Assembly (NCBI GenBank): GCA_030656615.1
Contig: JAUSOY010000063.1
Location: 62,001-126,000, forward strand
Length of the DNA: 64,000 nucleotides
Direction of reading: 5' to 3'
From: Bacteroidales bacterium
GTDB lineage: Bacteria; Bacteroidota; Bacteroidia; Bacteroidales; TTA-H9
Positions 1,941-27,594 of this stretch are shown here, one piece after another; the stretch's first letter is position 1; each line of letters opens with the position of its first letter. A program made the position numbers and the translations under genes. The notes under the pieces were generated by a model. The model did not search any database, was not told the origin of the DNA, and saw nothing but the letters and a program-made list of their open reading frames with translations.

Positions 1941-3542
1941 TTATTTTACAATAACTTTCTGAGGAGCAGATGTTTCGTTGTTACTGCTAACGACAAACAA
2001 GTACATACCAGGTTTATAGATATCAATATTAATCTGGTTCAAACCATTGTGTATGCTGTATTCAGCAACTAAAGCACCTAAAAGCGAATAAACTCTTAGT
2101 GTTTCAGCATTTTTTGATGCCTGAATTTTTACATATCCCTGAGCGGGATTTGGATAAAGATTGAAGGTCATTACAGGGCTGTTTTCAATACCAGTTCCCA
2201 TTTCGCCATACACTTCGATGTTATCAACTTCCCAGGTAGCGGCTGCTGTGCTGTTGGAAGTGTATTTAAAAGCAACGCGAACATTACTTCCATTATAATC
2301 ATTGATGTCAATGGTTCCCGAAGGAGTCCACACCCATCCACCTGCAGATAGATTCACCTGAAGCATATCCCAGCTAGCAGCATTTGGATTACCAGTACCA
2401 CTATAATCTTCAGAAATCATCACCTGAAGAGGATCGCCAGTATAGTTTTTGGCGGTCTGGAACATCAGTTTTTCATTATGATAATTATTAAAATTAAGTG
2501 CTGGTGAAATCAGCCAATCTTCATTCTGAGCAGCGGCAGTTGAATAACCACTCATGCGTGCGCAAGCAGAACTTCCAACACCATAAAGCGTATCGATTGT
2601 CCATAATTGATCGCCGATAACACTAAAGGTTGTCCATGTACCAAACGTCTTATTATTGAAATTCTGACCATGAATCAGTGTAAGATTGGGAGTGGTAGCA
2701 TTAGCAGAGGGTGTGGTACCATCCGTTTTGAAATTAACGTTTGAACCAGTGTTGGTATAAGGATAGATTTTGAAATAATACGTTTTATTTCCATCTAAAC
2801 CGGAAAAAGTGTACGACTGAACACCTTGAGCTACGTTTTTCGCTCCATTACCATTTGAAAAATCGAGATCGTCGGCAACAGGAGTTCCATCAACAGGGGC
2901 TGTGATATTATTCTGGGTTGACGCTTTAATCAGATAATACTGAGGAAGCTGAGCTCCGGTAGCATCGGCCCAGTTAAGGCTTACAGAAAATGCGTTGGAA
3001 GTAGCAGCAAAAGCTGTCGGATAATTGGTAGGCTCTGGCAATGGGCCAGCACCATATGCAGTCCAGGTAATGTTGTCGATGGTTACCTGTCCCGAAGAAG
3101 TGTTTTTCTGAGTAAATTTAACTTTAAATGTTCCGGAAGAGTTCACCTGTATTGCGCCGCTATTTTTGATGATATTCACTTCGGCATTAGAAGTAACATT
3201 ACCAACAAGAATATCGTTAACATAAACATCCAGATTTACATTGGTAGAAAATGCCTGCATATAATCAAAGCTTAATGTACCGCAACCGCCATTGATATTT
3301 CCAGATTCAACAGTCGAAACCGGGGTACGGGCTTTTCCAAGGGTTGGTGAAGGGGCTGCGATGATAATATCACCGCGGCACTGCCAGAATGACCATACCG
3401 ATCCATCCTGACCGGTAAAGCTACCATCAACGTATGAATTGCTGGTAGGCGTAAAGTTGGCGAAATTTTCAAGTCCCTGGCCAATAAGATTGGTGGCACC
3501 AAGGACAAGCATCGCAAAAAAGAGTAAAAAAGTTTTCTTCAT
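1941..3542 (-). CDS. Secreted T9SS cargo protein with FN3-like and choice-of-anchor J domains
   Basis: The start at 3542 gives 533 residues and puts the signal peptide (MKKTFLLFFAMLVLGATNLIG) at the N terminus; an upstream in-frame ATG at 3620 would add 26 residues of non-signal sequence. An N-terminal beta-sandwich-like region spans about 25-160. An FN3-like domain beginning LPEPTNYPT covers about 165-285. A choice-of-anchor J (cleaved-adhesin-like) domain follows at about 286-445, with the typical DWLISPALN motif. A T9SS type A sorting domain (458-533; FNLYPNPA, then a MYLFVV strand) ends the protein. Export by Sec and then T9SS to the cell surface is expected. No catalytic motif is visible, so it is probably an adhesin or binding protein. 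It lies downstream of a longer paralogue. Confidence 0.85.
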   Translation of the reverse strand: MKKTFLLFFAMLVLGATNLIGQGLENFANFTPTSNSYVDGSFTGQDGSVWSFWQCRGDIIIAAPSPTLGKARTPVSTVESGNINGGCGTLSFDYMQAFSTNVNLDVYVNDILVGNVTSNAEVNIIKNSGAIQVNSSGTFKVKFTQKNTSSGQVTIDNITWTAYGAGPLPEPTNYPTAFAATSNAFSVSLNWADATGAQLPQYYLIKASTQNNITAPVDGTPVADDLDFSNGNGAKNVAQGVQSYTFSGLDGNKTYYFKIYPYTNTGSNVNFKTDGTTPSANATTPNLTLIHGQNFNNKTFGTWTTFSVIGDQLWTIDTLYGVGSSACARMSGYSTAAAQNEDWLISPALNFNNYHNEKLMFQTAKNYTGDPLQVMISEDYSGTGNPNAASWDMLQVNLSAGGWVWTPSGTIDINDYNGSNVRVAFKYTSNSTAAATWEVDNIEVYGEMGTGIENSPVMTFNLYPNPAQGYVKIQASKNAETLRVYSLLGALVAEYSIHNGLNQINIDIYKPGMYLFVVSSNNETSAPQKVIVK

Positions 3543-3587
3543 CGTGGTAATTTTAAATGATTTTAATTGAGTGCTATCAGAAAATAT

Positions 3588-3622
3588 GAGTGTGGTGCCC
3601 TTTTTATTAAGGCACCACACTC
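3588..3622 (-). terminator. Perfect 12-bp hairpin between two T9SS cargo genes
   Basis: GAGTGTGGTGCC (3588-3599) and GGCACCACACTC (3611-3622) form a perfect 12-bp stem with an 11-base loop. It starts 8 bases past the stop of the upstream gene on the minus strand. A strong U-tract is missing on the 3' side, so it could be a terminator, an attenuator or an mRNA-stabilising stem. Confidence 0.6.
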
Positions 3623-3630
3623 ACAAGGTA

Positions 3631-6579
3631 TTACTGTACAATAAGTTTTCGGGTTAATTCTTCTCCTTGATCAGAAACAAGTTTCACAAGGTACACACCT
3701 TGGGGAAGGTGAGAAATAGAAACTCTGCTTCTTTTCGACGTCGTACTATATTGTGCCACTTTTTTACCAAGCAGACTAAAAATTGTAATATCAGCACGGT
3801 TAAAAGCATGATCTAAATTGATGAATTCCCTGGCAGGGTTAGGACTTAGCGTGAATGAATTAGACAAATTGCCAATAATACCAGGATTTATTCCAACGGT
3901 GATATAATCCGTTTTTGTGAGAGAATCAGAACCTCCGGCATTTGTAACGACCAGTTTAACATCCCATACACCAACAGTTGAATATAACACCAATGGATTC
4001 TGCACGGTACTTGTTGCAGGGGTTCCACCTTCGAAACTCCATTTATAAGTCAACGGACCCACGCCCGCGGTCTGATCAGTAAACTGAACAGAATTATTTA
4101 CAACAATCGTTTGGTTATTAGCGATAAAACCAACTACTGGTAGAGCAGGAGGACATCCGGCACCCGGAGTAGCCCAGATTGTATCACCAGCAGCATTGAT
4201 GGCGGCAAAAGTGGTACAATGCGTCCAATTTGCACCCAAAGAGTTATTCAAATTAGGGTCGCAAAGAACAAGTGAAGGACCAAAACCATCAGCTAATGAA
4301 TCCCAAGGAGCAACATCATCATAAAAAACAGAGTCAACTGTTACACCTGCAGCATCTTTAATACGGATAAGCTCTCCGGAATTAGAAAGAGCACCACTGG
4401 TCCACTGTAATGCTGTTTTACCGAAAGTGCCCTGTATGGCTGATGCTTTATATGCAATAAGCAGATAATTCTGAGGAGCGATGGTAACATCTGGGAAAGT
4501 AAAAACAACACCTTCAGAAAATGTATAACCCAGCATGTTTACTGGATCAACTCCATTGTTATACAACTCAATAAATTCAAGGCTGTCTGTTCCGGACTCA
4601 GGAGAATTGTACATTATCTCAGTAATAACAATTTTCCTTTCAAGTGAAGGAGCTACATTTATATAAGCATCTTTACATTTGGTATGATTGCCAAAAGCAT
4701 TAGTAACCGTCAAGCACACATTATACTGACCAACAAAATTATACTGGATTCCAGTAGGATTTTGAACACTGGCAGTAGGAGGATTTCCGCCCACAAATGA
4801 CCATGCCCATGCAGTGGGAGCATTCGTTGATTGATCCGTAAAACTGGTGGTACTTCCAACAGCGACATTGATATTTGTGGCAACAAAATCAGCAACAGGA
4901 GCAAGACCAGCAACAACCGTAAATGCATTATCACTTTGGTCAAAAACTGTAGGTGCTGAAACAGAAGAAATCTTTACCTTATAATCACTGGCTGGCGTCT
5001 GTGAAACAGGAATAGTCCATGCGTAGGTTCCTGTATTTGGCGCAGAAGCAGCGATAACAGAAGGATTTGCACCCACTAGTTCGATTTTTACGTTACCGGT
5101 AATATTAGCATAATTCCATGTAATATTATGCGCTGTTCCCTGCATCCACTGTTCACCACCATTCGGTGAAACAACAGCAATACTTGGAGCTGGAGCAACA
5201 TTATCACCAACAATTTCAAACTGATCGACATACCAACGACGGGGAGTTCCGTTACTAAGGTATTGAACGGCTATACGAACCGAGGTTCCGGAAATGGAAG
5301 AAAGGTTCACGTAACCTGATGAATCCCATACATCAGCGGCTGCTGGTTTCGTAAATGGAAGTTCAGTCCAGGTAGCGGTAGCAGGGCTACCTGTTGTGTA
5401 ATTCGTCGAATATTTCAGTTTAAGTTCAGTATCATCAATGCCATATTTCCATTGACTGAAGAACATCAGTTTTTCGTTGTAATACGTATTCATATTGAGG
5501 GCAGGGGAAATCAGCCAGTCATCACTGGGTACATTTTCCTGATAACCATTTATTTGCGCGAAATAAGAAGTTGCCTGAGCTCCTCCTCCAACAAACAAAC
5601 CCCAGTCTTTATCCGAGGCCACACTGAAGGTAGTCCACGGAGTAAAAGCATTATGTTCGAAAGTTTGTGAATTTACAAGAAACAAATTGGTAGTACCTGA
5701 TGTAGCCGTCGGTACTGTACCATCCGTTTTGTAATTAATATTTGAACCTGTATTTGTATATGGATACACTTTCGTATAGTAAGTTGTATTTCCACTAAGG
5801 CCGCTAAAAGTGTAAGTTTGCTGACCTGGAGTAACATTTTTGTATCCCGTACCATCACTCATATCAAGATCATCGATGATGGGCACACCATCCACAGGTG
5901 CAGCAAGACTGGCATTGTTACTAACACGAACCAAATACCCGGTCGGGGGTTGAGTTCCGGTGGCATCGGTCCATCGAGGATAAATATGAAGCATATTTAC
6001 AGCTGAACGTACAGCGGTTGGATAATTTGTAGGTTCGGGAAGTGAAGTTGAACCAGTTCCAAAATAGAAATTATCATAATAATTGAACCCTCCTGCAGCA
6101 ACATCTGCATAAACACGAACTTCAAAGCGGAATCCAGTTGCACCTACCGGGGCAGGAAGAGTAACAGAATACTGCTGCCAGGCTGGGTTATCGGATGAAT
6201 AGGTTCCGGGTCTGAGTTCTGTAGCATTATCCGCCATTGTTGCAGTACCATTTAACCAATAGGCCCAGATTCTTGTTTTAGCATTAACATCATTGTCGAG
6301 ATACCAATAACTGATTGTGTAATTTGTTCCGGGAACAACTCCATTAACCACTTGCTGAAGTCTTTTTGAAGATGACTGAGCAGTGTGCTTGGCTGAATTT
6401 GAACCATTTTGAACAAAAACAGTGTTTTGATCAATAAATTCAGAAACATCCCATTGTGCAGGCTGGGTAGCCGTTGTCCAGGTTTCTAAGCTGGGATTGT
6501 TCATCATATTCTGAGCGGTAGAATATCCGGCCAGAAAGAGTAGAACGAAAGAGATAAAAACATGTAAAGTTTTCTTCAT
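3631..6579 (-). CDS. Large multidomain secreted T9SS cargo protein (FN3, anchor J, PKD, lamin-tail)
   Basis: The product has 982 residues and a signal peptide (1-22). Visible modules in order are: a carbohydrate-binding-like sandwich (about 24-176); an FN3-like domain beginning LPEPTNYPT (about 180-300); choice-of-anchor J with DWLISPALN (about 300-462); a KNH/Ser-Thr-rich-type sandwich starting SPNGGEQW (about 468-560); a first PKD domain (about 563-650); a lamin-tail domain (VITEIMYNSP, about 655-780); a second PKD (about 790-893); and a T9SS type A sorting domain (905-982, FTLSPNPA to the end). The FN3 and anchor-J block is closely related to that of the neighbouring gene, which implies a tandem duplication. 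No protease or glycosidase motif is visible. It is likely an extracellular adhesion or matrix protein. Confidence 0.88.
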   Translation of the reverse strand: MKKTLHVFISFVLLFLAGYSTAQNMMNNPSLETWTTATQPAQWDVSEFIDQNTVFVQNGSNSAKHTAQSSSKRLQQVVNGVVPGTNYTISYWYLDNDVNAKTRIWAYWLNGTATMADNATELRPGTYSSDNPAWQQYSVTLPAPVGATGFRFEVRVYADVAAGGFNYYDNFYFGTGSTSLPEPTNYPTAVRSAVNMLHIYPRWTDATGTQPPTGYLVRVSNNASLAAPVDGVPIIDDLDMSDGTGYKNVTPGQQTYTFSGLSGNTTYYTKVYPYTNTGSNINYKTDGTVPTATSGTTNLFLVNSQTFEHNAFTPWTTFSVASDKDWGLFVGGGAQATSYFAQINGYQENVPSDDWLISPALNMNTYYNEKLMFFSQWKYGIDDTELKLKYSTNYTTGSPATATWTELPFTKPAAADVWDSSGYVNLSSISGTSVRIAVQYLSNGTPRRWYVDQFEIVGDNVAPAPSIAVVSPNGGEQWMQGTAHNITWNYANITGNVKIELVGANPSVIAASAPNTGTYAWTIPVSQTPASDYKVKISSVSAPTVFDQSDNAFTVVAGLAPVADFVATNINVAVGSTTSFTDQSTNAPTAWAWSFVGGNPPTASVQNPTGIQYNFVGQYNVCLTVTNAFGNHTKCKDAYINVAPSLERKIVITEIMYNSPESGTDSLEFIELYNNGVDPVNMLGYTFSEGVVFTFPDVTIAPQNYLLIAYKASAIQGTFGKTALQWTSGALSNSGELIRIKDAAGVTVDSVFYDDVAPWDSLADGFGPSLVLCDPNLNNSLGANWTHCTTFAAINAAGDTIWATPGAGCPPALPVVGFIANNQTIVVNNSVQFTDQTAGVGPLTYKWSFEGGTPATSTVQNPLVLYSTVGVWDVKLVVTNAGGSDSLTKTDYITVGINPGIIGNLSNSFTLSPNPAREFINLDHAFNRADITIFSLLGKKVAQYSTTSKRSRVSISHLPQGVYLVKLVSDQGEELTRKLIVQ

Positions 6580-21474: not shown

Positions 21475-21942
21475 TTACATCATATGACCATAAACACGCC
21501 CTTCCATTCGCTCAATAATAACTCTGAAAGGAAGTACTTCTTTTATTGCTGGAGCATTATATGAAAAAACGCGTTTGGCGTACTTTAACATTATGACATT
21601 CATAGCGCGGATACGTTCATCATAGTCATCAATAAACTCCACTTTGCCATAGACCAGAACCGAGCGGTATTTCATACTCCACGAACAAGCTACGGGCTCA
21701 TTGATGTATTGCAATTCATGATCGGTACTGAAAGCGATACATACTTCCGGATTGTTTCGCAGAATATCAATTTTATGACCATTCGCTGCCGAATGTAAGT
21801 ATATTACTTTGTCTTCAAATCCGAAATTCATCGGTACAACATAGGGTTTACCATCTGGATCTACCATGGCCATATAGCCTGCGTCGCATTTATTGATAAT
21901 ATCAATCATGACATCTTCACGTGTTACAACCTTGTTTTTCAT
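21475..21942 (-). CDS. Pyridoxamine 5'-phosphate oxidase-like / NimA-like flavin protein
   Basis: Starting at the ATG at 21942 (MKNKVVTREDV) gives 155 residues and avoids overlap with the upstream gene; an earlier ATG at 21996 would overlap it by 40 bases. The pattern AMVDPDGKPYVVPMNFG and then LHSAANGHKIDIL is typical of the FMN-binding split-barrel family (PF12900-like), which includes nitroimidazole-resistance proteins. The substrate is unknown, and a drug-resistance role should not be assumed. It follows the protease-barrel fusion gene by 14 bases. Confidence 0.82.
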   Translation of the reverse strand: MKNKVVTREDVMIDIINKCDAGYMAMVDPDGKPYVVPMNFGFEDKVIYLHSAANGHKIDILRNNPEVCIAFSTDHELQYINEPVACSWSMKYRSVLVYGKVEFIDDYDERIRAMNVIMLKYAKRVFSYNAPAIKEVLPFRVIIERMEGRVYGHMM

Positions 21943-21956
21943 ATAGATAATTTTTA

Positions 21957-24764
21957 TTAAAGTCTGTCGAATCGGATATTGAATAAAACATCCCAAGCAA
22001 AAGTATTACTTTCTGGAATGTATGAAGAACGAAAGCCGGCTTCTACCGGCGCTGCAAAACCAAAAATATGCATATCACCCAGGCACTCCACTCCGACTGA
22101 GTGATGCGGAATCTGTTTTACCCAAATAAAATCTGCAAATAGACTTGCCCGGATACGTTTAAGGTACATCGTCCATGGAATACTCATGTCAGGGTATCCA
22201 ATCGGAAAAGTGTAATTTACTCCGGCTGCAATAGCTTCGCCATCAGGTAAAAGTCCCTGACCTCTGGGTTCTTCCACAACACGCCCAAAATATCTTGTAT
22301 CGGCCTTTTGAGAAAACCATTCATAAGCACCATACAGCCGCAGTCCATGATGTTTATACAATCCGGGTAAATATTGGTACATTTCTGCAATGTATTGATC
22401 TCCAAAGGATGAAGCCTTCAATGGTGTAGACCTCATCCGTATATCTAAAACCTGACCGAAACGAGGCATAATATCCTGCCTTGCAGAGCGAATACTTTGT
22501 GCAAAAAACAAACGGTACTCTACACTCATATATCGATCATACTTCAGTTTCCCCACTTCCGGATTTAGCTGATCAATAAATGTCATTCCGGCCTTTATCC
22601 GTGGTGAAAATGTCCGTAACCATCTGCCACGGGAAAGATTTACAGGAAGCGCTATTTCGCCATCGACATGGGTTTCGTTTAATTTCAGTAAAACCTGTTG
22701 GTTCTGACGAGTTGCCATTGCTTCCCGATAATAATACTCCATTAGTAAAGAGAAAGTCGGGTACCAACCAGTATATGAAATATCAGAATATAAACGCCAT
22801 GGAATATTTCCCCGGCTATATTCATAACCGGCCTGAATGATTGTTGTGCCCAAAAGATTTTGAGACAGCACAGAAAATCCGGGCTTGATATTATCATCAC
22901 TGGCATATGTGTTAACGGGTCCCCAGCTATGGATACCAAAAATATGCGCAAGTTTTTTATAGGAACTAACACTGGTTAAGGTATCATCCTGGAGGAAATC
23001 AACCTTTGTATTCTCTTCAGCGGCCCCTTTATCAGCCAAATGTGAAATCGGGGGGGAATTCATGAGGATTTCTGATTCCGACAAATTATTCAACAAAAAA
23101 ACAGCATTTCCGCTTTTGCTGAATTCAGAAACCATAATGCTTCCTTTTCCATTCATCACAGGCCAACTTAAGCCAGATGCTGCGGTTCTTATAATTCGTG
23201 GAACGTCATCTTCAGGATATAAAGCAAGGATAAATGACTGATTTTCTGACTCGCTTACAAAAAACAAACTATCCTTTTGGGCTGTCAGATGAAAAATATC
23301 GAGACCAAACATGAAAAAACGTGTTTGCACTTTACTTCCATCAAGCGGTATATAGACAATTTTTTTTCCTGAGTCACTCAAAATAACGGCTGCTATCGTA
23401 TCAATATTTAAAAATACCGGCGATAAAATAACCGAATTTTCAAGACATAAAATCTCATTTGGCAATTCATGCGAATTAAGCATCACCTTTAACAAACGGC
23501 TCCCTCCCCTGCTGTTTTGTTCTACCAGAATCAGATGACTTGCATCATCGGAAAGACAAACGGCCGAAAAATCACCGGAATTAGAAACAATTTGGGATTG
23601 TCTTGTTTTCAGATTCAACATTCTGGCACGCGTTTTACCAGCATGAGTCCATCTCCAGTGAGGCACTGCTTCAAGCCAAATGGCGAATGAATCACGAATT
23701 CTTAAACTCTCTGATAAGTAGGATGCCGGCGTATAAATTATCTCTTCTCCATTACTTGTCTTTCTCACCAGCCGATCGACGTCATTCCACGCAGAACGCA
23801 AAGCCACATACTCTGAACCGGATGCTGGAAAAGCATGGGAATAATTTGTAAAAACGCTCGTTTTTGGAGACAAAGTCAGGCCAGGTGTATAAGGAAGATT
23901 GGCAGGCTTAACAAGAATACCTGACTTAATAAAATCGTCATAAAGCCCGTATTTTGATAATCCGGTCTGCTTTTTAATTCCCGTAGAAAAAGCAATGGGG
24001 TTCCACGGATTACGCGCCACATAATGCAAAACGCCATCCCAAAGGTCGCGGCCATATCTTGAACGAGACCAGGAAGTCATTGAATATCCAAAACTATATG
24101 CATCAGGCGTATAATCCTTGTATGAGCCAAACATCATTTTATCATATGATACTTGTTTTGTTTGATTTATCATGCTGACTGCTTCCAAAAATCGCAGACT
24201 CCGGCCCCTGCCTGAATTTGAAAATACAGTTTCGGCATAAACGGCATCCCCCTCCAAAAACCATGAAGGCAAGAACGCTCCGGCAATTCCACCGGTAATT
24301 TGCTCGCCAAAAATATAATACAAAATTCCTGTCATCCCGATTCGCATACGATCCAATTGCACCATATGTCGGCCTTCATGAATTGCCAATTGTTCGAGCC
24401 AGGGTTGATTGTAAATATCTTCGGGAACTCTGGTCATTAATTCCATACGAGCCGGAGCCCATGAAACCAAGCCATTGGAACGCATGGTTCGTGTATGCAT
24501 TAAAATCTGCCAGTCATTCCCTGTACTCTTAATACTCTGATGTAAAGGCCGGTAATATTTTGACAAATACCGGCTAAAACGGATGGCCGTAATTGTATCT
24601 TCCCTGGGGACAATTACCTTGAAATTTGTTGACTTTACCTGCATCCATCGAATGGAAGACGGATCTTCACCGGTCAGGTAAAATTGAGAATGAGCCTGTA
24701 AGGATGCTGCAAGCAATCCGATCAAAACTAAACAGTAAGTAATCGGGCGGAAAGCGTTTGACAT
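21957..24764 (-). CDS. Predicted gluzincin metalloprotease fused to a beta-propeller and outer-membrane beta-barrel
   Basis: The product has 935 residues and a signal peptide (about 1-26). A zinc site is visible: H129-E130-x2-H133 in AIHEGRHMVQLD, with a third ligand candidate E171 in SWFLEGDAVYAE, as in gluzincins of the Peptidase_MA type. Residues about 290-610 show WD40/TolB-like propeller repeats. The last ~300 residues alternate like beta-strands (for example GTTIIQAGYEYSRG, WRLYSDISYTGWYP) and look like a translocated outer-membrane barrel. The layout suggests a surface- or periplasm-facing peptidase anchored by its own barrel. The architecture is read by eye; the barrel assignment is the least certain part. 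Confidence 0.75.
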   Translation of the reverse strand: MSNAFRPITYCLVLIGLLAASLQAHSQFYLTGEDPSSIRWMQVKSTNFKVIVPREDTITAIRFSRYLSKYYRPLHQSIKSTGNDWQILMHTRTMRSNGLVSWAPARMELMTRVPEDIYNQPWLEQLAIHEGRHMVQLDRMRIGMTGILYYIFGEQITGGIAGAFLPSWFLEGDAVYAETVFSNSGRGRSLRFLEAVSMINQTKQVSYDKMMFGSYKDYTPDAYSFGYSMTSWSRSRYGRDLWDGVLHYVARNPWNPIAFSTGIKKQTGLSKYGLYDDFIKSGILVKPANLPYTPGLTLSPKTSVFTNYSHAFPASGSEYVALRSAWNDVDRLVRKTSNGEEIIYTPASYLSESLRIRDSFAIWLEAVPHWRWTHAGKTRARMLNLKTRQSQIVSNSGDFSAVCLSDDASHLILVEQNSRGGSRLLKVMLNSHELPNEILCLENSVILSPVFLNIDTIAAVILSDSGKKIVYIPLDGSKVQTRFFMFGLDIFHLTAQKDSLFFVSESENQSFILALYPEDDVPRIIRTAASGLSWPVMNGKGSIMVSEFSKSGNAVFLLNNLSESEILMNSPPISHLADKGAAEENTKVDFLQDDTLTSVSSYKKLAHIFGIHSWGPVNTYASDDNIKPGFSVLSQNLLGTTIIQAGYEYSRGNIPWRLYSDISYTGWYPTFSLLMEYYYREAMATRQNQQVLLKLNETHVDGEIALPVNLSRGRWLRTFSPRIKAGMTFIDQLNPEVGKLKYDRYMSVEYRLFFAQSIRSARQDIMPRFGQVLDIRMRSTPLKASSFGDQYIAEMYQYLPGLYKHHGLRLYGAYEWFSQKADTRYFGRVVEEPRGQGLLPDGEAIAAGVNYTFPIGYPDMSIPWTMYLKRIRASLFADFIWVKQIPHHSVGVECLGDMHIFGFAAPVEAGFRSSYIPESNTFAWDVLFNIRFDRL

Positions 24765-24773
24765 CCTGTTAAA

Positions 24774-25484
24774 TTAAATGGTTATTTTATTGAAATGATC
24801 CCAAAGAGGATCGGTAGGACAAGCGGCTGTGATAGTAATCAATTCCTTGCTTACCGGATGCTGGAATTCGATATCGCGTGCATGAAGGTGAATAAAACCT
24901 CCCGGATTGGAACGGGCAAAACCATATTTTAAATCACCACGAATGGGGCAACCAATATGTGCCAATTGAGCTCTGATTTGGTGATGACGTCCAGTTTGCA
25001 GATTAATCTCTAGCAAGAAATGATTATCTGATTCGGCAATTAATTTATAATCCAAAACGGCCAACTGACTGTCTTTTACTTCCTTATCATAAATATACGC
25101 CTTATTTTGCTTCGTATTCCGTCGGATATAATGCCTGAGTTCCTGCTCAATAAAGGGAGGCCGTTCACGAACCACAGCCCAATATGCTTTTTTAATGCGC
25201 CTTTCCTGAAGCATTTTATTCAAACGCTGCAAAGCCTTCGTGGTTTTTGCAAAAATCAGTGCACCGCTAACAGGCCGATCCAAACGATGTACGACTCCTA
25301 AAAAAGCATCTCCGGGTTTTTTATATTTTGTTCGGATATATTCTTTTACATTATCAAAAAGCGAAGTATCACCGGTTTTATCATCCTGAACAATTTCTGT
25401 AGCAAGCTTATTTACTACCAAAAGGTGATTATCTTCAAAAAGCACCCGTGATTCTATGTTTTGAATAATATCCACAACAGGCAT
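24774..25484 (-). CDS. RluA-family RNA pseudouridine synthase
   Basis: The product has 236 residues. The catalytic motif HRLDRPVSGALIF has the active-site Asp at residue 69. The usual LQTGRHHQIRAQLAHIGCPI block follows at about 165-185. There is no N-terminal S4 domain, so it resembles short RluA/RluC-type enzymes; which uridine it modifies in rRNA or tRNA is not readable. Its start codon overlaps the stop of panB, so translation is probably coupled. Confidence 0.92.
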   Translation of the reverse strand: MPVVDIIQNIESRVLFEDNHLLVVNKLATEIVQDDKTGDTSLFDNVKEYIRTKYKKPGDAFLGVVHRLDRPVSGALIFAKTTKALQRLNKMLQERRIKKAYWAVVRERPPFIEQELRHYIRRNTKQNKAYIYDKEVKDSQLAVLDYKLIAESDNHFLLEINLQTGRHHQIRAQLAHIGCPIRGDLKYGFARSNPGGFIHLHARDIEFQHPVSKELITITAACPTDPLWDHFNKITI

Positions 25485-26308
25485 TAATATTGTTCGCGGT
25501 CGTTCGGAAAATCAAATGACTTCACATCGGCGATATAATTGGTGACTGAACCTTTAATTTCTTCGTACAAATTATGGTAACGACGCAGGAAACGGGGGGA
25601 GAATTTGTGTGTAATTCCAAGCATGTCGTGCAAAACAAGAACCTGTCCATCAACACCACCTCCGGCACCAATTCCAATGGTCGGACACCTCACCATTTGT
25701 GTGACTTCTGTTCCAAGTGAAGATGGAATTTTCTCCAGAACGATGGCAAAACAACCAGCCTGGTCGAGCTTTTGAGCATCTTCAACCAACTTATGAGCCT
25801 CAGCGTCATCTGTAGCTCTCACAACATAAGTACCGAATTTATGGATCGACTGAGGAGTTAATCCAAGATGCCCCATCACGGGTATTCCGGCTGACAGAAT
25901 CCGATCAACGGATTCGATAATTTCTGCACCACCTTCTATTTTTATAGCATTGGCGCCACTTTCTTTCATTATACGAATAGCTGATGCCAGCGCTTCCTTT
26001 GAGTTACCCTGATATGTACCAAAAGGCAGATCCACAACAACCAATGAGCGATGAACTGCCCTCACAACGGAGGCCGCATGATAAATCATTTCATTGAGTG
26101 TAATGGGCAATGTAGTGGAATGACCTGCCATAACATTAGACGCACTGTCACCCACCAGGATAATATCAATACCTGCCGCTTCCAGAATTCCTGCCATTGA
26201 AAAATCATAGGCCGTCAACATAGCGATCTTTTCGCCACGTAGCTTCATCTCCTGAAGAACATGGGTAGTGATTTTTGTATACCTCTGAGAACCATATTTC
26301 TGATCCAT
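25484..26308 (-). CDS. panB: 3-methyl-2-oxobutanoate hydroxymethyltransferase
   Basis: The product has 274 residues, the normal family length. The N-terminal [17 protein letters not shown] and the metal-binding [17 protein letters not shown] are conserved, as is [10 protein letters not shown]. It adds a hydroxymethyl group from 5,10-methylene-THF to 2-oxoisovalerate, the first step toward pantothenate and CoA. panC, panD and panE are not in the window. It overlaps the pseudouridine synthase gene (TAATG). Confidence 0.97.
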
Positions 26309-26535: not shown

Positions 26536-27594
26536 ATGACCAAAAGATTTTTTCTTGCCATCAGTCTTTTTTCTATACTATTATCAGCTTGTGAAACGAA
26601 TTTTGATGTAAACGCCGACTGGAAAGACACTCCGGTTGTATACAGCATCATTTCCCAAAGCGAACGTTCACAGGTTTTCAGGATTAACCGCGCGTATCTT
26701 GGTTCAGGCGATGCTCTGATGTTTGCTCAAATTGCCGATTCCATAAATTATGATACTACCTTAATTAGAGCACATATTGAAGACTGGAGAAACGGATATT
26801 ATTTCAAATCCATTAAACTTGTCCCTGAATGGATTCACCGCGACTCGATATACAGCAGCGTATTCTATAATCCTGATTTCCCATACGTACTTATATACAA
26901 AACCGAACCTTATCCATTTTTTAAGGTTAATTCACCCGGCGACACTTTATGGCTCAATCCGGATGCTGAATACAAACTGATTATTAATAACCTTAAAAAC
27001 GGAAAAGAAATCACCAGCAGTACGCCACTAGTAAAAGACTTCACCATCTCCAAACCATTATATAATCCGTACAATCCTCAAATAACCATTCGAAATAATG
27101 AATATTCGAATAGTATTAAATGGAGAGCTGCTGAAAACGGAAAACGCTACGAATGTATGTTCCGATTCTATTATAAGGAATGGGATACTCCTGGTGACTC
27201 TACACTTCATGTGATAAACTGGAGTTTGGGTTCTTATAAATCAAAGGATGCCATTGGCGGTTATGAAATGGAAACGGTTTATTCCGGCCGCGATTTCTAT
27301 ACTTTCCTTAAAAACAACATTCCCGCCAATTCAAATGTTAAACGGGGTGCTCACCGACTCGAACTGGTATTCACTGTGGTTGCTGACGAATTCAATACAT
27401 ATATTGAAGTAAATGAACCATCTTCCAGCATCATTCAGGAAAGACCAGAATATACCAATATCAACAATGGTCTGGGATTATTCTCCAGCCGTCTCACGAA
27501 AAAACGCATGTACCGCATTGGTTCCGATATGGAAGCAGATATTATAAGCTATTTCGGATCCATCGACAATAGCTTTAAAAAAATATCGCCCTAA
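26536..27594 (+). CDS. DUF4249-like lipoprotein
   Basis: The product has 352 residues. A lipoprotein signal ends at LLSAC (Cys 19), followed by ETNFDVNADWKDTPVVYSII, the typical start of the DUF4249 family of Bacteroidota outer-membrane-associated lipoproteins. The rest is beta-rich with the expected IVNxAYL-like region (FRINRAYLGSGDA). In other genomes DUF4249 genes often sit beside TonB-dependent receptors, but none is present here. The function is unknown. A terminator lies about 140 bases downstream. Confidence 0.75.
   Translation: MTKRFFLAISLFSILLSACETNFDVNADWKDTPVVYSIISQSERSQVFRINRAYLGSGDALMFAQIADSINYDTTLIRAHIEDWRNGYYFKSIKLVPEWIHRDSIYSSVFYNPDFPYVLIYKTEPYPFFKVNSPGDTLWLNPDAEYKLIINNLKNGKEITSSTPLVKDFTISKPLYNPYNPQITIRNNEYSNSIKWRAAENGKRYECMFRFYYKEWDTPGDSTLHVINWSLGSYKSKDAIGGYEMETVYSGRDFYTFLKNNIPANSNVKRGAHRLELVFTVVADEFNTYIEVNEPSSSIIQERPEYTNINNGLGLFSSRLTKKRMYRIGSDMEADIISYFGSIDNSFKKISP

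Follow-up and report, generated by a model that had tools for sequence, protein, structure and literature searches.

A gluzincin-type metallopeptidase domain, a TolB-like propeller and an Omp85-type barrel predicted in one Bacteroidales protein, a candidate periplasmic peptidase tethered to the outer membrane

The window analyzed here is a stretch of 64,000 nucleotides from a Bacteroidales bacterium (assembly GCA_030656615.1, contig JAUSOY010000063.1, positions 62,001 to 126,000), and it encodes a 935-aa protein that we consider, with a probability of roughly 0.6, to be a zinc peptidase tethered to the outer membrane on its periplasmic side and devoted to the processing or quality control of envelope proteins. 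The chain runs from a signal peptide through a peptidase domain and a propeller to a C-terminal barrel (Table 1), and the AlphaFold2 model of the whole chain is confident (pLDDT 86.3, pTM 0.87). The reading frame, on the minus strand, has the position given in an initial annotation made from the sequence alone. Neither Pfam nor NCBIfam returned any match for the protein, even at E 1. The putative signal peptide, recognized by its hydrophobic core, is followed in the model by a low-confidence linker at residues 19-31, and the aligned homologues have a similar N-terminal segment ending in (A/S)-Q; at the opposite end, the last residues form a barrel-type strand.

Table 1. Features of the peptidase-propeller-barrel gene and of its neighbors, in coordinates of the window.
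Feature	Coordinates	Strand	Basis or remark
Whole gene, peptidase-propeller-barrel protein, 935 aa	21957..24764	(-)	ATG 24764, stop 21957; model; homologues
Probable Sec signal peptide, residues 1-27	24684..24764	(-)	Hydrophobic core, read from sequence
Predicted gluzincin metallopeptidase domain, residues 28-292	23889..24683	(-)	Folded alone; fold matches M30, M1, M9
HEGRH, predicted zinc-binding/catalytic motif (H129, E130, H133)	24366..24380	(-)	Invariant in homologues; helix 122-140
WFLEGDA, residues 168-174; E171 probable third zinc ligand	24243..24263	(-)	Invariant in 27 homologues; helix 167-181
Y223, candidate catalytic tyrosine in Y..GY motif	24096..24098	(-)	47/47 sequences; role suggested by gluzincin mechanism
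Predicted six-bladed TolB-like beta-propeller, about residues 300-564	23073..23867	(-)	Structure superposition and family profile
Predicted 16-stranded Omp85/BamA-type outer-membrane barrel, residues 611-931	21972..22934	(-)	Model strands, BamA superposition, sister-family sequence chain
PRG, residues 833-835, positioned like the Omp85 L6 motif (V/L)RG(F/Y)	22260..22268	(-)	Loop between strands 11 and 12
Pseudouridine synthase (PF00849), upstream	24774..25484	(-)	9-base gap; probable same operon
panB, ketopantoate hydroxymethyltransferase (PF02548), upstream	25484..26308	(-)	Probable same operon
Pyridoxamine 5'-phosphate oxidase-like gene, downstream	21475..21996	(-)	Its longest ORF runs into the 3' end of the peptidase gene

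The peptidase domain

Folded alone, the N-terminal domain reached a pLDDT of 85.7 and superposed on M30, M1 and M9 enzymes with Z of 12-14 over 216-236 of its 265 residues (M30 lugdulysin 14.0, M1 aminopeptidases about 13, M9 collagenases 12.9). All 50 structural matches listed for the domain were gluzincin-fold entries, a fold that includes leukotriene A4 hydrolase, while Foldseek ranked an M9 collagenase best (E 3e-5), its first matches being the peptidase domains of clostridial collagenases, along with an M61 enzyme. The initial annotation had read HEGRH and WFLEGDA as the two halves of a gluzincin site lying about 38 residues apart and had named a predicted structure as the check: in the model HExxH and E171, which follows H133 by exactly 38 residues, sit on an earlier and a later helix in the usual gluzincin arrangement, and the absence of a zinc-compatible site, the result that could have overturned this reading, did not occur.

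The same motifs stand out in comparison with relatives. In 27 homologues aligned from the whole-protein search, a set assembled with no selection on motifs and only 23-30% identical to the window protein, H129, E130, R132, H133, W168, E171, G172, D173 and A174 are all invariant, and because they are so at such low identity, the conservation of HE.RH and W..EGDA is above chance. H129, E130, H133, E171 and Y223 are likewise invariant in 47 homologues, and the catalytic site is among the best-conserved portions of the protein. A profile search of the PDB with the peptidase domain alone gave no sequence matches. The Pfam search for Peptidase_MA_2 (PF13485) that the annotation had called for had a divided outcome, as there was no match in the window protein, nor is the family listed for the 47-member set, but three proteins of the sister families described below (L113, L116 and L117) exceed its cut-off. 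An M1-type aminopeptidase was considered and rejected, the family consensus having no GxMEN before HExxH (WAPARMEL occupies this place in the window protein). As modeled, the N-terminal domain is thus of the gluzincin fold, with a complete predicted HExxH...E zinc site, and from fold and site conservation we infer zinc binding and protein cleavage.

The propeller and the barrel

The TolB/WD-like repeats noticed at first proved to be a propeller close to that of TolB, on which the model superposes with Z 20.6 (rmsd 3.0 Å, 238 residues); in a search with the family profile, solved structures of TolB scored E 4.7e-14 with other propellers well behind, and Pfam found PD40 in eight members of the 47-member set. 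The likeness to TolB is one of fold and profile in the propeller, whereas TolB is soluble, its N-terminal domain is Rossmann-like and it lacks both a peptidase site and a barrel; the possibility that the window protein is itself a TolB was discarded on its gluzincin N-terminal domain and its C-terminal barrel.

Residues 611-931 superpose on the BamA of Flavobacterium johnsoniae (9n2e_A) with Z 17.8 and an rmsd of 4.0 Å over 279 residues. The 50 structural matches listed for the model include no outer-membrane barrels other than BamA, although a fold similarity to BamA is by itself no proof of common descent. The C-terminal region had been described as strand-rich and barrel-like: with 16 predicted strands it does appear to be a membrane barrel and not a soluble domain, but the description was too loose, the type most likely being that of Omp85/BamA. 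The longest loop of the modeled barrel (26 residues) carries PRG, with P conserved in 44, R in 43 and G in 46 of 47 sequences. The first position of this L6-like motif is P, as against V, I or L in the Omp85 (V/I/L)RG(F/Y), and residue 836, immediately after it, is Q in the window protein and mostly Y, I or F in the family; the BamA proteins of the same genomes carry LRGY at L6.

PF01103 did not match the window barrel even at E 10, and its direct profile comparison with BamA was not significant (probability <5%). In place of this direct comparison, a chain was drawn through two sister families (L111-L124), taken from elsewhere in the phylum, whose members have about the same length and domain order as the window protein and keep HExxH and EG.A without exception (14/14). 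Profile alignments of the window family with the two sister families over the full length gave E 8e-67 and 2e-52 (1.7e-52 for sister B, with which the barrels alone align at a probability of 19%). One sister barrel (G063:C12, gene of L114) reaches the PF01103 cut-off, and the sister-B barrel aligned with BamA in hhalign at a probability of 96% (E 3e-9), a FadL-type negative control scoring 0.2% in the same comparison. The matches to Peptidase_MA_2 and to Omp85 thus fall in one and the same sister family. On predicted structure and on this chain of sister families, the barrel is probably of the Omp85/BamA type.

Two side observations concern Omp85 proteins more generally. PF01103 is blind to the window barrel (21972-22934, (-)), and Omp85 surveys based on this model may therefore undercount the members in Bacteroidota. 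The genome studied also has a 443-residue Omp85 protein with LRGI (L127, G000:C83:59042-59692), in length like the 'noNterm' subfamily.

Distribution and gene neighborhood

The whole-protein search found relatives in 37 of 60 genomes, the genome studied included, and most of them are full length, with an identity of about 23-38%; considering the good genomes of the order, they occur in 34 of 51 and none was found in the other 17. A scan of the genome contigs with the window protein as a single sequence retrieved no relatives, while a scan with the alignment did. Over 84,980 species, the alignment scan gave at least 580 encoding loci, mostly of Bacteroidales, and the best 80 of these belong almost entirely to Bacteroidales and their relatives, with Mangrovibacterium, Draconibacterium, Carboxylicivirga and Labilibacter among the genera and also Parabacteroides faecis. 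The scan was filtered on P.W[FL].EGDAV, and the invariance of the second motif in it simply follows from this selection; HE.RH was not part of the filter and is present in all 80 loci fetched. The family is common and conserved, has no Pfam or NCBIfam name, and is one whose representative in the window is not reached by the library models.

The genes flanking the family are of the housekeeping kind: the pseudouridine synthase stands at position -1 in 15 of the 68 loci with enough flank, panB at position -2 in 15 of 65, and several loci have a gene like the pyridoxamine 5'-phosphate oxidase-like one at +1 or +2. This order suggests co-transcription with housekeeping genes, and the neighbors seen at the family loci, housekeeping genes only, give no pointer to a function in the envelope. 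In one relative (L008:1-3426, (-)), a complete RluA-type pseudouridine synthase continues in frame, with no intervening stop, into the peptidase-propeller-barrel protein, whose signal-peptide-like segment thereby becomes internal; the cause is an error of assembly or else a genuine fusion that also has a start inside it. Elsewhere in the window, two adjoining genes (1941-6579, (-)) encode proteins with the C-terminal sorting domain of type IX secretion, and in one of them lamin-tail and PKD domains are present as well. A probable lipoprotein without Pfam match is encoded at 26536-27594 (+), and about 12 other loci have, in the corresponding position by the peptidase gene, a divergently oriented gene of similar appearance.

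Topology and possible function

In Omp85 barrels the number of strands is even and both termini are periplasmic, and the catalytic part of a protein ending in such a barrel is therefore most likely periplasmic. By analogy, in PlpD, an Omp85-enzyme fusion once thought to be secreted, the enzyme was shown to stay in the periplasm (PMC11116518), and together with the periplasmic termini of Omp85 barrels this implies that the peptidase and the propeller should face the same compartment. Of the two locations left open by the initial annotation, which spoke of a surface or periplasmic protease, the barrel type favors the second and makes the first less likely, proteolysis itself being deduced from the domain. 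Its remark that the construction departs from that of classical autotransporters agrees with the barrel type, 16-stranded and Omp85-like in the model as against the 12-stranded barrel of type Va; an autotransporter of that type, with its surface passenger, is rejected on the same feature.

The chain would then be exported by Sec, and its C-terminal barrel would insert into the outer membrane, leaving gluzincin domain and propeller in the periplasm at the inner face of this membrane. H129, H133 and E171 would hold the zinc ion and E130 would activate a water molecule, with Y223 probably stabilizing the transition state, while the probable role of the propeller is in presenting or gating substrates, whether proteins or peptides, or else in docking partners. 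The most likely substrates are envelope proteins near the outer membrane, which the enzyme would process or clear in a manner comparable to BepA, though with a different construction. BepA, the M48 metalloprotease at BAM, is a TPR-linked enzyme with neither barrel nor propeller; the likeness is limited to the proposed role, and no family relation is claimed. It serves here as a functional analogy, being a zinc protease with substrates among the envelope proteins close to the outer membrane (PMC13067283).

An outer-membrane assembly factor, in which barrel and propeller would act together as BamA and BamB do and the peptidase would be minor or regulatory, seems to us unlikely: the barrel is Omp85-type and a role in assembly was suggested for WD40-Omp85 proteins in the main text of Heinz and Lithgow (PMC4104836), but the model shows no POTRA domain, the failure to find relatives in 17 of the 51 good genomes of the order does not befit essential core machinery, and the catalytic site is among the best-conserved portions. 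We rate lower still a surface-displayed peptidase, moved with its propeller to the cell surface by the barrel, as was once proposed for type Vd secretion. Bacteroidota do display many surface proteins, and the succession of enzyme and barrel resembles that of PlpD and FplA; against this, a folded peptidase with a six-bladed propeller would presumably not fit an Omp85 pore, and the window protein has no type IX secretion tail by Pfam and no lipobox in its sequence. The enzyme of PlpD, moreover, is itself periplasmic (PMC11116518).

Most gluzincins are peptidases, and Pfam found no cell-wall-binding domain in the window protein or the family, so that a non-proteolytic zinc hydrolase or zinc-binding protein, directed beside a TolB-like scaffold to another substrate such as cell-wall crosslinks or lipids, is the least probable of these proposals, even though leukotriene A4 hydrolase shares the fold and the main text on OMP-TolB-like proteins links them, as a suggestion, to septal cell-wall remodeling (PMC12204202).

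Relation to known proteins and implications

The periplasmic peptidase proposed here has relatives in construction among proteins already described. Compared with BamA and other Omp85 proteins, it shares the 16-strand barrel fold as modeled, with an RG at the place of L6, but has propeller and peptidase in place of the POTRA domains. PlpD, a patatin-Omp85 protein, similarly places an enzyme N-terminal to an Omp85 barrel in one chain; that enzyme is a lipase and not a metallopeptidase, a POTRA domain stands where the propeller would be, and a homodimer was shown. Within the BAM complex of Bacteroidota, BamM is a lipoprotein of prolyl-isomerase fold, and BamI, also a lipoprotein, has its propeller on the outer face; a link of the window protein to BamM, BamP or BamI is rejected, no such peptidase having been found in either description.

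The WD40-Omp85 subfamily was defined in 2014 by Heinz and Lithgow, whose main text describes a propeller most like TolB (PMC4104836). Compared by class description, the window protein has the features of this subfamily, namely a TolB-like propeller followed by an Omp85 barrel and no POTRA; it differs in its N-terminal gluzincin, which the main text does not have, and in a barrel too divergent for PF01103. The 'Metallo' subfamily of the same main text is defined by PF00149, a domain different from the gluzincin (PMC4104836). OMP-TolB-like or FhaC-TolB-like proteins, presented in 2025 and proposed as relatives of the ancestor of TolB, have in the main text a barrel together with a propeller and an 'adjacent Rossmann-fold' (PMC12204202). 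By description, these share with the window protein the outer-membrane barrel, the periplasmic six-bladed TolB-like propeller and one more folded domain adjoining it; the paper describes this domain as a Rossmann fold, but in the window protein it is a predicted gluzincin with an intact HExxH...E. The main texts of both papers report no gluzincin or peptidase domain (PMC4104836; PMC12204202). As far as these descriptions and the model go, the window protein fits the propeller-plus-Omp85 class already described, and the intact predicted metallopeptidase site is the addition.

Little is known of the enzymes by which Bacteroidota clear or process their outer-membrane proteins, and this family is a conserved candidate. 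If the propeller-plus-barrel class carries an intact metallopeptidase, its function becomes directly testable, and the origin proposed for TolB, from outer-membrane proteins of this kind, would have an actual enzyme to begin from. We advance only as a doubtful conjecture that OMP-TolB-like proteins across Bacteroidota and beyond are membrane-tethered gluzincin peptidases, unrecognized machines of outer-membrane protein processing in which peptidase, propeller and Omp85 barrel act jointly, and the source of TolB.
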